Assembly (NCBI RefSeq): GCF_001428545.1
Contig: NZ_LMHZ01000025.1
Location: forward strand, 1 to 63,256
DNA: 63,256 nucleotides
Origin: Noviherbaspirillum sp. Root189
GTDB taxonomy: Bacteria > Pseudomonadota > Gammaproteobacteria > Burkholderiales > Burkholderiaceae_D
Direction of reading: 5' to 3'
Shown: positions 16,928 through 23,356 of the stretch, piece after piece
How the letters are laid out: each line of letters opens with the position of its first letter
Position numbering within the stretch: position 1 is the stretch's first letter
Notes under the pieces: model-generated
What the model was told of the DNA's origin: nothing
Seen by the model: only the letters and a program-made list of their open reading frames with translations
Database searches by the model: none
Translations under genes and position numbers: made by a program

Positions 16928-18953
16928 GCCGTTCTATCGCCGCCTCATCAGCTATTACACCTGGTACACAGCGGGCTTCATCGTGTTTCTGATTTCCTTG
17001 TCCATCCTGGAGAAGGAAGGCTTTCCGCGCGCATGGATCGGCTACATGTTCATGTTTTCGACCATCGTGCTGTATGCGGGCATCGGCGTTCTCAGCCGCA
17101 CCTCTGATGTGTCCGAATATTACGTCGCCGGACGACGCGTGCCGCCGATGTTCAATGGCATGGCCACTGCGGCTGACTGGATGTCGGCCGCAAGCTTCAT
17201 CAGCCTTGCGGGCGGCCTCTATGTCATGGGTTTCGATGGTTTGGCCTACATTCTTGGCTGGACCGGCGGCTATTGCCTGGTTGCGCTGCTGATTGCGCCG
17301 TTCATCAACAAGTTCGGGCAATACACCATTCCGGATTTTCTTGCGGCCCGCTATGCCGGCCGCTACAGTGGAAATATCGTGCGCGTGCTGGCCGTCATCG
17401 CCACCGTGCTGGTGTCCTTTACCTACGTGGTCGCGCAGATCTATGGCGTCGGACTCATTACATCCCGCTTTACCGGCGTGGATTTTTCGGTCGGTATTTT
17501 TCTTGGACTGGCTAGCATCCTGGTGTGTTCCTTCCTTGGCGGGATGCGGGCGATCACATGGACGCAGGTCGCGCAATACATCATCATCATCATTGCCTAC
17601 ATGATCCCGGTCATATGGCTGTCGGTGAAACATACAAACGTTCCGGTTCCGCAACTGGCCTACGGCTCGGCCCTGTCCAAACTCAGCGAACGCGAAAAGG
17701 AGCTTAACGCCGATCCGATGGAGCAACAGGTGCGCGATATTTTTCAGCGTCGTGCGGAAAAATACGATGACATGCTGAAAAACCTGCCCAAGTCCTGGGA
17801 AGAAGGCTTGATCGATATGCAGCACCATGTCGAAGATCTCAAGCGCAGTAATGCGTCGCTGATCGAAATCAAGGCAGCAAGCAGGATGCTCGCCGCCTAT
17901 CCGAAAGATCCGATAGAGGCCGACCGCAAATGGCACGAGGCGAAAGCCCAGAACCTCGCGCGGGCGGAACCTGTCGTCGCGCATGAAACCCCTTTTCCGG
18001 GAAAGACCAAGGAAGCGTCCGACACCAAACGCAATAACTTTCTCGCCCTTGTCCTTTGCCTGATGATGGGAACGGCTGCCCTGCCCCATATCCTGGTCCG
18101 CTTTTACACGACGCCCTCGGTGCCTCAGGCGCGGCGCTCGGTATTCTGGACCTTATTCTTCATCATGTTGCTGTATATCACCGTACCGGCCCTCGCGGTC
18201 CTTGTGAAGTACGACATCTACAGTTCCCTGGTCGGCACACCATTCTCAAAACTGCCGTCCTGGGTCTCGTATTGGGCCAGCGTGGACAAGATCAATCCGC
18301 TGGTGTCGATCACCGACCTGAATCGCGACGGCATAGTGCAGCTAGCCGAGATCGTCATGGATGGCGATATTGTCGTACTTGCGACGCCGGAGATCGCTGG
18401 CTTGCCCTATGTGATTTCCGGCCTGGTGGCGGCAGGCGGACTGGCGGCGGCATTGTCTACAGCGGATGGCCTGCTGCTCACTATTTCGAATGCGCTGTCT
18501 CATGATATCTACTACAAGACCGTGGATCCCATGGCATCGACGCAGAAGCGCGTGACGATTTCCAAGTTGCTGTTGCTGGTTGTCGCCCTGATTGCGGCCT
18601 ACGCGGCATCCCTGAAACCGGGCGATATTCTTTCAATGGTCGGCGCCGCGTTCTCGCTCGCAGCATCGACACTGTTTCCCGCCCTTGTTTTGGGCGTTTT
18701 CTGGAAGCGGGCGAACCAGCAAGGTGCCATTGCCGGCATCCTGATCGGTTTTGCCGTATGCGTGTTTTACATGCTCCGCACCTACCCTGCACTCGGCGGT
18801 TCCTCGCTGAACCAGTGGTTCAGCATCGCGCCGATCTCGGCCGGTGTGTTCGGTGTTCCTGCGGGTTTCATCTCTATCGCACTGGTCAGCCTGTTGACCA
18901 GTGCACCGGATCGGGGCACGGACGCCTTGGTGGACCATATTCGCACACCTTGA
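16917..18953 (+). CDS. Sodium:solute symporter, VC_2705/ActP-like
   Basis: A 678-residue inner-membrane transporter of the SSS family, close to the VC_2705 and acetate-permease (ActP) types. The core shows SEYYVAGRRVPPMFNGMATAADWMSAASFISLAGG, FTYVVAQIYGVGLI and GGLAAALSTADGLLLTISNALSHDIY. An unusual charged segment of roughly 140 residues (about 235-375, with many Glu and Lys) is inserted between membrane helices, which explains the length beyond ActP's roughly 550; this is known in the VC_2705 group. Acetate or another short carboxylate is the likely substrate by family, but not proven. It is the last gene of the regulator-kinase-DUF4212-symporter operon. Confidence 0.9.
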   Translation: MSNKPFYRRLISYYTWYTAGFIVFLISLSILEKEGFPRAWIGYMFMFSTIVLYAGIGVLSRTSDVSEYYVAGRRVPPMFNGMATAADWMSAASFISLAGGLYVMGFDGLAYILGWTGGYCLVALLIAPFINKFGQYTIPDFLAARYAGRYSGNIVRVLAVIATVLVSFTYVVAQIYGVGLITSRFTGVDFSVGIFLGLASILVCSFLGGMRAITWTQVAQYIIIIIAYMIPVIWLSVKHTNVPVPQLAYGSALSKLSEREKELNADPMEQQVRDIFQRRAEKYDDMLKNLPKSWEEGLIDMQHHVEDLKRSNASLIEIKAASRMLAAYPKDPIEADRKWHEAKAQNLARAEPVVAHETPFPGKTKEASDTKRNNFLALVLCLMMGTAALPHILVRFYTTPSVPQARRSVFWTLFFIMLLYITVPALAVLVKYDIYSSLVGTPFSKLPSWVSYWASVDKINPLVSITDLNRDGIVQLAEIVMDGDIVVLATPEIAGLPYVISGLVAAGGLAAALSTADGLLLTISNALSHDIYYKTVDPMASTQKRVTISKLLLLVVALIAAYAASLKPGDILSMVGAAFSLAASTLFPALVLGVFWKRANQQGAIAGILIGFAVCVFYMLRTYPALGGSSLNQWFSIAPISAGVFGVPAGFISIALVSLLTSAPDRGTDALVDHIRTP

Positions 18954-19111
18954 CAGCCTGTTGCCAGCAGCTTGGCACGCTTTCGGCGCTTGCCTGGAGA
19001 TGAGAACAGTATCGTTCCTGCTGGCACGCTTCTGGCATAAAGCATGAGGAAGCGCAGCGACTACCGGCGATCGTAGCGTTACGCTATCCGGATAACCATA
19101 CAAACAAAGCC

Positions 19112-20536
19112 ATGCCCAACTTTTTTGATGAAATGTATGTGGAGTATGTGGACGGCCCCGCTTCCGTCCGCGCGCACTATCGGCAATTCCAGCAATGGCT
19201 GTCACAACAGCCTCCGGAAATCATTGATCGCAAACGAACGGAAGCCGACTTCATTTTTCGCCGGGTGGGCATCACCTTCGCGGTCTACGGCAACGATGCC
19301 GGTACTGAACGCCTGATCCCCTTCGACATTATTCCGCGCATCATTCCGGCCAAGGAATGGGAAAAACTGGAGGCGGGACTGGTACAGCGCGTCAAAGCGC
19401 TGAACATGTTCATTCACGATATTTATCACGATCAGCACATCGTCAAGGCCGGCGTCGTACCGGCCGAACAGATTTTCAGGAATGCGCAGTATCGGCCCGA
19501 GATGCAGGGCATCTCCGTGGCCTCGGATATCTATGCGCATATCGCAGGCGTCGATATCGTCCGCGCCGGCGAAGGCGAGTTCTACGTTCTTGAGGACAAC
19601 CTGCGCGTGCCCTCCGGCGTGTCGTACATGCTCGAAGACCGCAAGATGATGATGCGGCTGTTTCCAGAACTCTTCGCGCACTACAAGGTCGCGCCGGTGG
19701 CCCATTATCCCGACATGCTGCTGGATAACCTGCGTTCGGTGGCGCCGGTCGGCGTCGTCGATCCGACGGTCGTTGTCATGACGCCAGGCATGTACAACTC
19801 GGCCTATTTCGAGCATGCGTTCCTGGCGCAGCAGATGGGCGTGGAATTAGTCGAAGGCAAAGACCTGTTCGTCGATGACAATGCGGTCTACATGCGCACC
19901 ACACGCGGACCGAAGCGCATCGATGTCATCTACCGGCGCATCGACGACGACTTCCTTGATCCGCTGGCCTTCCGCCCGGATTCCTCGCTCGGCGTGCCTG
20001 GATTGCTGTCGGTGTACCGCGCCGGTCGCGTTACACTGGCCAATGCCATCGGTACGGGTGTCGCGGACGACAAGTCGATCTATCCGTATGTGCCGAACAT
20101 GATCAAGTTCTACCTGTCGGAAGACCCGATCCTGAATAACGTCCCGACTTACCAGTGCCGCAAGAAGGAAGATCTTCAGTACACGCTGGACAAGCTGCCG
20201 GAACTGGTTGTCAAGGAAGTGCACGGTGCCGGGGGCTACGGCATGCTGGTGGGTCCGGCGTCAACCAAGGCCGAGATCGAGGCTTTCCGCCAGCGCCTGA
20301 TCGCCAGACCCGACAGTTACATTGCACAACCGACCCTCGCCCTGTCGGCCTGCCCGACCTATGTCGAATCCGGGATCGCCCCTCGCCATATTGACCTTCG
20401 CCCTTTCGTACTATCCGGCGAAACGGTTTCCATGGTCAAGGGCGGCCTGACCCGCGTTGCATTGAAGGAAGGCTCGCTGGTCGTGAATTCGTCGCAGGGC
20501 GGTGGCACCAAGGACACCTGGGTTTTGGAGAAATAA
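19112..20536 (+). CDS. Circularly permuted ATP-grasp protein of the Anbu cluster
   Basis: A 474-residue circularly permuted type 2 ATP-grasp protein (DUF404/DUF407). Family landmarks include FDEMYVEYVDGPASVRAHYRQF, RRVGITFAVYG, PFDIIPRII, GEFYVLEDNLRVPSGVSYMLEDR, YRRIDDDFLDPL, GVADDKSIYPYVPNMI and VVKEVHGAGGYGMLVGP with its nucleotide-binding glycines. By fold it should join a carboxylate to an amine using ATP, for example making or attaching a peptide; the substrate is unknown. It is the first gene of a four-gene rightward cluster, separated from the next gene by a single base. The 158-base upstream gap after the symporter probably holds the promoter. No signal peptide. Confidence 0.9.
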   Translation: MPNFFDEMYVEYVDGPASVRAHYRQFQQWLSQQPPEIIDRKRTEADFIFRRVGITFAVYGNDAGTERLIPFDIIPRIIPAKEWEKLEAGLVQRVKALNMFIHDIYHDQHIVKAGVVPAEQIFRNAQYRPEMQGISVASDIYAHIAGVDIVRAGEGEFYVLEDNLRVPSGVSYMLEDRKMMMRLFPELFAHYKVAPVAHYPDMLLDNLRSVAPVGVVDPTVVVMTPGMYNSAYFEHAFLAQQMGVELVEGKDLFVDDNAVYMRTTRGPKRIDVIYRRIDDDFLDPLAFRPDSSLGVPGLLSVYRAGRVTLANAIGTGVADDKSIYPYVPNMIKFYLSEDPILNNVPTYQCRKKEDLQYTLDKLPELVVKEVHGAGGYGMLVGPASTKAEIEAFRQRLIARPDSYIAQPTLALSACPTYVESGIAPRHIDLRPFVLSGETVSMVKGGLTRVALKEGSLVVNSSQGGGTKDTWVLEK

Positions 20537-20537
20537 G

Positions 20538-21500
20538 ATGCTGAGTCGAACCGCAGATCACTTGTTCTGGATGGCGCGCTATACCGAGCGAGCCGAAAAC
20601 ACCGCACGCATGCTGGACGTGAATGTGCAGACCGCACTGCTGCCCCAGTCGGCGGAAGCCGCCGAGCAGGGATGGCGGGCAATGCTCGGCATTTCCGAAC
20701 TGCTGAGCGCTTTCGATGACAAGCATGGACTGCTCACCGCGAAGGACGTACTCGACTTCATGGTGCGCGACCCGGACAATCCTTCATCCATCGTATCCTG
20801 CCTGACGCAGGCTCGCGAAAATGCGCGTGCCGTTCGCGGCACGCTAACCACGGAAGTGTGGGAAACCCAGAACGCCACCTATCTCGACCTCCAGGGTAAG
20901 CTGCGCAGCGGAATGCTGGAGCGCGACCCAAGCGCGTTTTTCGAATGGGTGAAATACCGGTCTCACCTGTCACGCGGCGTTACCATCGGCACGATGCTCA
21001 AGGATGAAGCGTTCTATTTCATCCGTCTGGGCACCTTTCTCGAGCGCGCGGACAACACCGCCCGCATTCTCGACGTTAAGTTTCACGGGGCAAACCCGGA
21101 CGCGTATGCGGACGCGCACCCCAATGAAGAGGCGCAGCGTGACTTCTATTACTGGGCGGCGATTCTGCGCTCGGTATCCGCCTTTGAAATTTATCGCAAG
21201 GTCTATCGCGATGTGATCACGCCGGAACGCGTGGCCGAATTGCTGATGCTGCGGGGTGATATGCCGCGTTCGCTGCTGGCGTGTCTTGAAGAGGTGGTCA
21301 ACAATCTGCAGCATGTGCGCAATGACGTATCCGCCGGAACCGAGCGCTTTGCCGGACGCCTGCATGCGGAACTGAAATTCGGCAATATCGAAGAGATCCT
21401 GAAAGAAGGTTTGCACGACTACCTGACGCAGTTTCTGGAACGTATCTACGAACTTGGCAATCGCGTCAGTCGCGATTTCCTGGTTCCTCTGGCAGCCTGA
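20538..21500 (+). CDS. Alpha-E domain protein of the Anbu cluster
   Basis: A 320-residue, almost entirely helical protein of the alpha-E family. Signatures are the opening MLSRTADHLFWMARYTERAENTARML and the internal echo FIRLGTFLERADNTARILDVK, which suggests an internal duplication. No enzymatic activity is established. The constant pairing with a circularly permuted ATP-grasp protein suggests a partner or scaffold for that enzyme. The ATG at 20538 lies one base after the ATP-grasp stop, and the preceding bases (GGAGAAATAAG) include a ribosome-binding site. The transglutaminase-like gene follows 8 bases later. Confidence 0.9.
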   Translation: MLSRTADHLFWMARYTERAENTARMLDVNVQTALLPQSAEAAEQGWRAMLGISELLSAFDDKHGLLTAKDVLDFMVRDPDNPSSIVSCLTQARENARAVRGTLTTEVWETQNATYLDLQGKLRSGMLERDPSAFFEWVKYRSHLSRGVTIGTMLKDEAFYFIRLGTFLERADNTARILDVKFHGANPDAYADAHPNEEAQRDFYYWAAILRSVSAFEIYRKVYRDVITPERVAELLMLRGDMPRSLLACLEEVVNNLQHVRNDVSAGTERFAGRLHAELKFGNIEEILKEGLHDYLTQFLERIYELGNRVSRDFLVPLAA

Positions 21501-21508
21501 GAACCAGG

Positions 21509-22333
21509 ATGCGACACTTCATTCGCCACGAAACGGTATATCGCTATACGGCACCGTTAAACTATACGATCCAGCAACTGCGCCTGTCGCCCCGCAGCGA
21601 ACCGCACCAGCGCATCGTATCCTGGAACATCAGCAGCAGCGGGAGACAACATGCTTTTGTCGATGCGTTCGGCAATCTTTGCCACATGCTGACGATCTGC
21701 GGCCGGCATGACGAAGTACGCATCGTTGCCGCCGGCATCGTGGAGATCACAGCGCTGGACCGGGGTCGCCTCACCACGCCCAACGAATTCTCTCCGCTGG
21801 TATTCACCATGCCGACCCGTTTGACGGACGCGGACGAGAGCATTGTGGCGTTCGCCCATGCGCATTTGTCCGTTGGAGCCGATAGTTCGCGGCTGCTCGG
21901 ATTGGCTGAGGCGATCCAGGGCACGGTGGCCTACCAGACCGGCGCCACTGTGGTGACGTCGACGGCCGCCGAGGCACTACGTCTTGCGCGTGGCGTTTGC
22001 CAGGACCATGCACATCTGTTCCTCGCCTGCTGCCATGTGCTCGGGATTCCGGCCCGTTATGTATCCGGCTACATTGATCCGGGCGATACGGCACATGCCG
22101 AAAGCCATGCATGGGTCGACGTCTGGGTGGAAGAATCCGGCTTTTCCGGTTGGGTCAGCGTCGATGTGACGCACGCCCGTTTTACGGACGCCTCGCATTG
22201 CCGTCTTGCCATTGGACGGGACTACGACTCGGCTGCCCCGATTCGCGGCGTCAGGCGCGGCGGCGGAAACGAGACGCTCAGCGTCAGGGTCGATGTTTCG
22301 CCGACAACCATCACAACACCCACATCGTTGTAA
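21509..22333 (+). CDS. Transglutaminase-like protein of the Anbu cluster
   Basis: A 274-residue protein with an N-terminal beta domain (MRHFIRHETVYRYTAPL ... LRLSPRSEPHQRI, typical of bacterial transglutaminase-like proteins) and a papain-like transglutaminase core. The triad is complete: Cys164 in ARGVCQDHAH, His200 in ESHAW and Asp219 in VSVDVTH. Such enzymes can hydrolyse or exchange amide bonds. Cytoplasmic location is expected, as there is no signal peptide. It starts 8 bases after the alpha-E stop and is followed after 90 bases by the Anbu peptidase. Its position suggests processing of the product of the ATP-grasp ligase, which is inference. Confidence 0.9.
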   Translation: MRHFIRHETVYRYTAPLNYTIQQLRLSPRSEPHQRIVSWNISSSGRQHAFVDAFGNLCHMLTICGRHDEVRIVAAGIVEITALDRGRLTTPNEFSPLVFTMPTRLTDADESIVAFAHAHLSVGADSSRLLGLAEAIQGTVAYQTGATVVTSTAAEALRLARGVCQDHAHLFLACCHVLGIPARYVSGYIDPGDTAHAESHAWVDVWVEESGFSGWVSVDVTHARFTDASHCRLAIGRDYDSAAPIRGVRRGGGNETLSVRVDVSPTTITTPTSL

Positions 22334-22423
22334 GCAGACACCATCGGAAAGCAAAAAATCTATTCTCACAGGGAGCATGCGAGCTTCCTGTAAAATTCCC
22401 ATTTTGCATTCTGTATTGCAACC

Positions 22424-23299
22424 ATGACTTATTGCGTCGCCATGCGCCTCGAAGCGGGGCTGGTTTTCCTGTCTGATTCCCGTACCAACGCGGGCGTCGA
22501 CCAGGTCAGCACGTTTCGCAAGATGACGGTCTTTGAAAATCCCGGCGATCGCATGATGGTGCTGATGAGCGCAGGGAACTTGTCAATTTCCCAATCCATA
22601 CGCCAGATTATCGCCGAGCGCAAAAGCGCCTCCGGCAAGAGTCTCTGGACGGCCGCCACCATGGATGAAGCAGCCCAGATTGTCGGTGAGGCAGTCCGTA
22701 CCGTGTATGAGCGTGATGCCAAATCGCTGCGTGAATTTGGCATCGACTTCAACGTCAGCCTGATTTTAGGCGGGCAGATCAAAGGCGAGCGTTGCCGCTT
22801 GTTCCAGGTTTATTCGGCCGGCAACTTCATCGAATCCCACAACGAGAACACTTACTTCCAGATCGGCGAAGCCAAATACGGCAAGCCAATCATTGACCGT
22901 GTTGTCACGCCGGCCACGCCGCTTGATGAAGCGGCGAAGTGTGCGCTTATCTCCATGGATTCGACTCTGCGCTCGAATGTCTCGGTCGGCTTGCCGCTGG
23001 ACTTGCTGATTTATGAAACCGATACGCTGTCCGTAACGCGTTTTGTGACAATCGATGAAAAAAACCAGTACTTCCGGATGATTCGCGATACCTGGGGCAA
23101 GCAGCTGAAAGCCATTTTCGAAGGCATTGACGACCCGGTATGGAATGCCACGTCCGAGACCGATCCGAATGTCCTGTCGACCAGCGCGACACGCAACCAG
23201 CCGGTACGTGTGCCTCCGCCAGAAGGCGTGGCGACGTCAAATACGCCTGGCCCGTTGCAAACCCTGGCTCAGGATGGCCGAAACCGGCAGCAGCATTAG
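22424..23299 (+). CDS. Anbu proteasome-like peptidase
   Basis: A 291-residue member of the Anbu (ancestral beta-subunit; COG3484) family of proteasome/HslV-fold proteins. It begins MTYCVAM, so removal of Met exposes Thr2 as the N-terminal nucleophile without a propeptide. The Ntn-hydrolase pattern is clear: GLVFLSDSRTNAG with the conserved Asp, RKMTVF with a Lys, and VLMSAGNLS. The core ends near residue 245. The last 45 residues are Pro/Thr/Asn-rich and look disordered, longer than I expect for Anbu. Anbu proteins assemble into open helical or ring-like particles, and peptidase activity has been hard to show. It is the last gene of the cluster, closed by a palindromic terminator. Confidence 0.92.
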   Translation: MTYCVAMRLEAGLVFLSDSRTNAGVDQVSTFRKMTVFENPGDRMMVLMSAGNLSISQSIRQIIAERKSASGKSLWTAATMDEAAQIVGEAVRTVYERDAKSLREFGIDFNVSLILGGQIKGERCRLFQVYSAGNFIESHNENTYFQIGEAKYGKPIIDRVVTPATPLDEAAKCALISMDSTLRSNVSVGLPLDLLIYETDTLSVTRFVTIDEKNQYFRMIRDTWGKQLKAIFEGIDDPVWNATSETDPNVLSTSATRNQPVRVPPPEGVATSNTPGPLQTLAQDGRNRQQH

Positions 23300-23332: not shown

Positions 23333-23356
23333 AAAAGGCGCCCGCGGGCGCCTTTT
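23333..23356. terminator. Bidirectional terminator between Anbu gene and purM
   Basis: A perfect 24-bp palindrome (AAAAGGCGCC-CGCG-GGCGCCTTTT) gives a 10-bp stem with A-runs on one side and T-runs on the other, so it can end transcripts from both directions. It lies between the rightward Anbu gene and the convergent leftward purM. Confidence 0.9.

Follow-up and report, generated by a model that had tools for sequence, protein, structure and literature searches.

Anbu is a relative of the proteasome that has been proposed to be ancestral, and it has no known substrate, activator or activity. Here, a complete Anbu operon was analyzed in Noviherbaspirillum sp. Root189, on a 63,256-nucleotide stretch of contig NZ_LMHZ01000025.1 (the window, meaning this whole stretch). 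The cluster is of an already known Anbu operon type (PMC5666114, PMC6376114), and what is new are three comparative results: a sigma54-like element ahead of the first gene, a -10-like box ahead of the Anbu gene, and motifs under purifying selection in the C-terminal tail of Anbu. We consider it reasonably probable that the operon is a nitrogen-starvation amide module with a leading promoter of the sigma54 kind, probably activated by NtrC, and with a promoter of its own for Anbu. A nitrogen switch, a separate Anbu promoter and the tail motifs would give concrete conditions and a peptide with which an activator and a substrate can be sought.

Genes and proteins of the operon

Four intact open reading frames (ORFs) lie on the plus strand within positions 19112-23299. 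They encode a circularly permuted ATP-grasp protein (19112-20536, 474 aa), an Alpha-E protein (20538-21500, 320 aa), a transglutaminase-fold protein, hereafter TG (21509-22333, 274 aa), and an Anbu proteasome-like subunit (22424-23299, 291 aa). The spacings between successive genes are 1, 8 and 90 bases, and the ORFs and family matches confirm the row of four rightward genes given in a preliminary description of this DNA. In profile searches the ATP-grasp protein matched PF14403 (E-value 3.4e-169, above the curated cut-off and over the full length of the family, positions 1-374 of 374) and PF04174 (1.2e-157), for which it is the sole match in its own genome. Its solved relative is 3n6x (7.7e-231), which is labelled a glutathionylspermidine synthetase; comparison with Escherichia coli Gss by hhalign gave a probability of 0.1% from a shallow alignment (effective number of sequences, Neff, 1.7). 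The Alpha-E protein matched PF04168 (1.4e-100), again as the single match in the genome, and its AlphaFold 2 (AF2) model is all-helical with a predicted local distance difference test score (pLDDT) of 87; no solved sequence relative was found for it at an E-value of 1 or below. TG matched PF08379 (4.7e-20) and PF01841 (7.9e-19) and has 3isr as a solved relative (2.5e-10). Anbu matched PF00227 (3.8e-5) and aligned with the solved Anbu chains, best with 5loy (9.1e-89, 300 bits). In the NCBIfam search, none of the four proteins matched at 1e-3.

Judged from the alignments, the active-site residues of Anbu and TG are intact, as the preliminary description had proposed, and no loss of any of them was seen in the window. 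Thr2, Asp18 and Lys33 of Anbu show no variation across all 77 non-redundant sequences, the window included (118 before filtering), and Thr2 would be exposed if the initial Met were removed. These residues are equivalent to Thr1, Asp17 and Lys32(33), which are named as candidate catalytic residues in PMC6376114. The TG triad Cys164/His200/Asp219 is conserved in 100, 98 and 100%, respectively, of 56 non-redundant sequences, which remained from 111 found and 90 of suitable length.

The gene order is also conserved. The order ATP-grasp, Alpha-E, TG, Anbu was found in 19 of the 37 Anbu loci of relatives (L064, with a larger TG in that place, was not counted), in 57 of the 81 loci of the named set, window included, and in 35 of 60 phylum-wide loci, one of which (L171) has Anbu set off by 2 kb from the gene before it. 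The 24 named-set loci without this order include some that are cut by contig ends, and the phylum set holds approximately one locus per genus, chosen from matches in 101 of 299 genomes. Alpha-E was present in 16 of the 16 Anbu-positive genomes tested, 15 of which were chosen because Alpha-E did not adjoin Anbu, and in none of four Anbu-negative relatives. In 4 of these 15 genomes (G024, G034, G037, G059) Alpha-E lies 8-12 kb from Anbu on the same contig, and in three genomes (G040, G059, G091) it is only 30-49% identical. In all 12 named Herbaspirillum loci (L110, L119, L120, L123, L130, L131, L133, L136, L137, L142, L143, L145) Anbu comes directly after Alpha-E, with no TG between them. In the loci L151, L153, L155, L156 and L158 Anbu stands alone, with Alpha-E elsewhere in these genomes; they belong to family f26, which we guess to be Comamonadaceae-like.

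The same four families, order and candidate catalytic residues are reported for the Anbu operon of Yersinia bercovieri and Pseudomonas (PMC6376114, PMC5666114). The window differs from these in having a 51-residue Anbu tail with motifs, located past the stretch that aligns with the solved chains, a -10-like box before Anbu, and the Oxalobacteraceae form of the lead element.

The upstream neighbour of the operon is a sodium:solute symporter gene that ends at 18953, and the downstream neighbours are a reversed AIR-synthase (purM) gene and an hda-like gene. Behind Anbu, at 23333-23356 on the plus strand, lies an intrinsic-terminator-like hairpin, a perfect inverted repeat of 10 pairs with a T-rich tail, which agrees with the closing terminator described earlier; the inverted-repeat scan found 5 such sites against 4.9 in shuffles, so that only the quality and place of the hairpin support it.

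Putative promoters of the operon and of Anbu

A sigma54-like promoter, TGGCACGCTTCTGGC, is located at 19022-19036 on the plus strand, 75 nt before the ATP-grasp start; it has the -24/-12 layout GG-N10-GC with one mismatch and with both the GG and the GC present. Scoring used general consensus sequences and weights for sigma54 and NtrC sites. By a count over the whole window the site is not significant (2 found versus 2.49 expected), whereas by position it is: of 4,318 control segments, 0.37% attained its score of 22 of 24. The named set has 73 upstream regions with at least 200 bases (of 81 loci); a score of at least 21 was obtained for 34 of them and of at least 19.5 for 54, while among 13,277 control segments the corresponding fractions were 1.7% and 7.8%. 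Only the N4 spacing scored high in this set (36 of 79, with none for N2, N3, N5 and N6), and the phylum set gave 12 of 42 for N4 against 0, 1, 1 and 1 for the other four spacings. Alignment of the sites from 49 non-redundant upstream regions revealed the conserved island YTGGCAYRNTTCTTG(A/C)T. A score filter of 18 had first admitted 58 regions, from which these were drawn, and the scored columns are therefore selected; among unscored columns, -1, 8-10 and 15 hold 1.1-1.9 bits and column 7 only 0.4, while the printed flanks stay below 0.5 bits except for column 16 (0.6). The element is thus a conservation island in Oxalobacteraceae, and canonical sites recur in part of the other Pseudomonadota: 7 of 59 lead regions of the phylum set scored at least 22.5, against 0.09% of 8,815 control segments. 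The window and most Janthinobacterium loci have the canonical GC. Together, this conserved element suggests that the leading promoter of the operon is of the sigma54 kind. A near copy, read by eye as TGGCACGCTTTCGGC, occurs at 18973-18987, some 50 bp upstream of the main site; it was not seen in the printed stretch of L032.

The arrangement further upstream points to control by NtrC. A tentative NtrC-like dyad, TGCACCGGATCGGGGCA, lies at 18902-18918, 120 bp upstream of the sigma54-like site and inside the 3' end of the symporter gene. It has a score of 14.5, with 1 found versus 0.23 expected (p 0.0007 per 300-bp segment). Among the 60 non-redundant loci that have a sigma54-like site, 10 carry a dyad scoring at least 14 located 40-200 bp upstream of it, compared to 0.32% of controls, and the dyad of the Janthinobacterium locus L124 is perfect. 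RpoN and NtrC are both encoded in the window's own genome, and NtrC probably controls the operon in this organism, as far as these sites can indicate. We take COG3484 to be Anbu. This category (proteasome-type protease) is reported as enriched in the predicted sigma54 regulon of Proteobacteria (PMC12316311).

Published expression data, as given in the parts of the reports cited here, link such operons to nitrogen starvation, a connection that the preliminary description had overlooked. Pseudomonas putida KT2440 has the same gene content (PP_2685-PP_2688), and its genes are induced by nitrogen limitation according to transcriptome and biosensor data (PMC7801951, PMC3325844, PMC8050072). A reporter of the region upstream of its ATP-grasp gene was induced 3.7-fold on nitrogen depletion, so that a nitrogen-responsive lead promoter is published, together with a separately active region before Anbu (PMC8050072). 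In Burkholderia cenocepacia H111 the genes I35_5080-83 (DUF404/407, DUF403, two transglutaminases) bring the circularly permuted ATP-grasp, Alpha-E and transglutaminase families together. Their listed changes in an ntrC mutant range from -6.0 to -9.4, and they appear among the targets common to sigma54 and NtrC (PMC5491218). As listed there, they lack Anbu and include a large transglutaminase, which makes them a sister cluster. The conservation of the sigma54-like element fits the nitrogen limitation data from P. putida and the NtrC/sigma54 data from B. cenocepacia, despite the induction seen in an rpoN mutant that is described below.

Of the three intergenic distances, that before Anbu is the longest (medians of 1, 5 and 83 in 77 loci), and it contains a putative promoter for this gene. 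The -10-like box TAAAAT is located at 22391-22396 on the plus strand, 27 nt before the Anbu ATG. A TANAAT box was found upstream of Anbu in 46 of 53 non-redundant four-gene loci (shuffles: mean 4.0, maximum 11), ending 25-34 nt (median 27) ahead of the ATG. It also precedes Anbu in 19 of 33 loci with other layouts (shuffles 2.2), while the counts before the other genes were 0 of 33 for Alpha-E, 0 of 57 for TG and 1 of 71 for ATP-grasp. In P. putida, the 200-300 bp upstream of Anbu gave constitutive, nitrogen-agnostic reporter expression (PMC8050072). For the Anbu transcript of this species, the sources give a change of 1.1-fold (PMC7801951), 11.1 as the first-column entry of a table (PMC3325844), and a log2 value of 4.4 (PMC8050072). 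Because of the -10-like box and the constitutive reporter, Anbu need not be strictly co-expressed with its neighbours, and the single co-expressed unit of the preliminary description is not supported in that form, with both findings pointing to partly decoupled expression: Anbu is probably also made without the other three genes, although the operon is shared. Near the presumed start of Anbu transcription, a T-rich stretch is conserved at 22402-22405, 11-14 bases past the start of the box.

The C-terminal tail of Anbu

The tail of Anbu (residues 241-291; 23144-23296, plus strand) comprises the 51 residues past W240, 7 of which are Pro and 7 Thr when counted by eye. The preliminary description had counted 45 residues, which is too few, and had called the tail worth comparing, which the motifs described here bear out. 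These are PVWNA (238-242), NVLS (249-252), QPVRVPPP (259-266) and GPLQTLAQ (276-283). An alignment of 32 sequences of the window's type, comprising the window and 31 of 42 listed relatives, shows no variation at W240, L251, P260, R262, P266 and Q279; a few sequences outside this alignment deviate. Ratios of nonsynonymous to synonymous substitution (dN/dS) from 49 close pairs were 0.11 for the Anbu core and 0.29 for the whole tail. Within it they were 0.03 for residues 238-243, 0.10 for 249-253, 0.31 for 259-266 and 0.03 for 277-283; the linker 267-276 reached 1.26 and is freely evolving, and for residues 284-288 synonymous change was saturated. As far as substitution rates can tell, this pattern matches a disordered tail that carries short binding motifs. 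On the question of a C-terminal helix that forms a dimer coiled coil, and of split-ring assembly, the alignment to 5loy extends to residue 239 of that chain, and the AF2 model of the window's own Anbu has pLDDT below 50 for residues 201-258.

Outside Oxalobacteraceae and some other Burkholderiales, most loci have a short or a different tail, or none. Most Anbu sequences of the phylum set end within about 10 residues of the equivalent of residue 240, and a few carry other tails; among relatives from other families of the same order (L059-L068), several also end near this position. The solved Anbu chains in the PDB have 240-251 residues and no such tail. Docking of a partner or substrate may be likeliest at the tail motifs. 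The Herbaspirillum sequences shown retain the tail although TG is gone from their operon, and docking of this TG alone is therefore unlikely to be its role. The five lone Anbu proteins of family f26 share a different, KKITNPxEKLI-like end, which suggests lineage-specific tail motifs.

Proposed role of the operon and alternative explanations

In the proposed amide module, a shortage of nitrogen would raise ATP-grasp, Alpha-E and TG from the leading promoter of the sigma54 kind. The ATP-grasp enzyme, with Alpha-E as its partner, would form an amide bond on a peptide, polyamine or protein, and TG, the Cys/His/Asp enzyme, would cleave or exchange amides of the same compound. The split ring of Anbu, present beforehand at a basal level from its own promoter, would then degrade the product or the modified protein, and nitrogen would be returned. 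The making and breaking of amides is the chemistry that these enzymes may perform.

Several points weigh against this account. The usual C at -12 is an A in 65% of the 49 non-redundant sites, although the window has the canonical GC. Scores below 19.5 were obtained for 40 of the 59 lead regions of the phylum set and for 19 of the 73 regions of the named set, including 11 of the 12 Herbaspirillum loci; in the twelfth, L110, the best sigma54-like site is 218 nt from the start. The NtrC-like dyad of the window falls in the coding sequence of the symporter gene. In an rpoN mutant of P. putida, induction of the three genes persisted at 14-20-fold (PMC7801951, Table 2). No conserved -35 box was seen in the aligned Anbu upstream regions, and few loci of the phylum set have the -10-like box: 8 of 60, against a mean of 1.6 and a maximum of 6 in shuffles. 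Since most phylum-set loci lack the box, it does not explain the P. putida Anbu reporter. In the tests described in the cited part of PMC6376114, recombinant Anbu from Y. bercovieri, Hyphomicrobium and Pseudomonas aeruginosa showed no peptidase activity and no complex.

An unlikely alternative, an idea of Iyer et al. 2009 as reported in PMC5666114, is that the operon synthesizes a small peptide or amide metabolite that contains nitrogen, and that Anbu serves this pathway as a peptidase and not as a protein degrader. The two amide-chemistry enzymes and the nitrogen regulation are consistent with it, as is the observation that the domains are co-abundant with urea metabolism in metagenomes from marine samples (PMC3597751). 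However, it has no known product, and the authors of the Anbu study cite the ring of many identical sites and the binding of proteasome inhibitors, which Anbu is reported to show, against peptide synthesis (PMC5666114).

The preliminary description had favored protein tagging, in which ATP-grasp and Alpha-E attach a peptide tag, TG edits it and Anbu degrades the tagged proteins; earlier authors put forward tagging hypotheses as well (PMC6376114). The gene order and co-occurrence, the intact active sites of Anbu and TG, and the release of phosphate from ATP by the Y. bercovieri ATP-grasp protein (PMC6376114) all argue for such a pathway. Nevertheless, we hold it to be quite improbable: the published tests cited above, which included proteasome substrates, give it no direct support, the operon has no AAA+ unfoldase, and Anbu expression is probably partly uncoupled. 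The available evidence does not discriminate between tagging for degradation, which may or may not take place, and two other readings.

It is equally doubtful that the element before ATP-grasp is the site of another regulator and that nitrogen control is absent in the family: the A at -12 and the induction in the rpoN mutant (PMC7801951) favor this, as does the 17-base form TGGCAYGNTTCTTGATA, which occurred in 2 of 21 genomes searched, once each and both times before this operon, and so looks operon-specific, but the specificity for N4 spacing, the canonical GC in the window and most Janthinobacterium loci, the canonical sites in other families and classes, and the NtrC-like dyads at the expected distance all speak for the sigma54-kind promoter.

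A more speculative extension of the amide module, to which we assign a low probability, concerns Anbu itself. In this lineage Anbu would be a partly constitutive, otherwise idle chamber, and its tail motifs would dock to, or be modified by, the nitrogen-induced module, which would switch Anbu on. The motifs concerned would be PVWNA, NVLS, PVRV-PP and, most importantly, PLQTLAQ, whose Gln is invariant. If true, this could explain the inactivity of purified Anbu.

Two more proteasome-like genes are present in the window's own genome (L220, G000:C36:12453-12953, and L219, G000:C14:86596-87099). One has 75 bits to PF00227 and is probably HslV, and the other has 34 bits and is perhaps BPH, both names being guesses.

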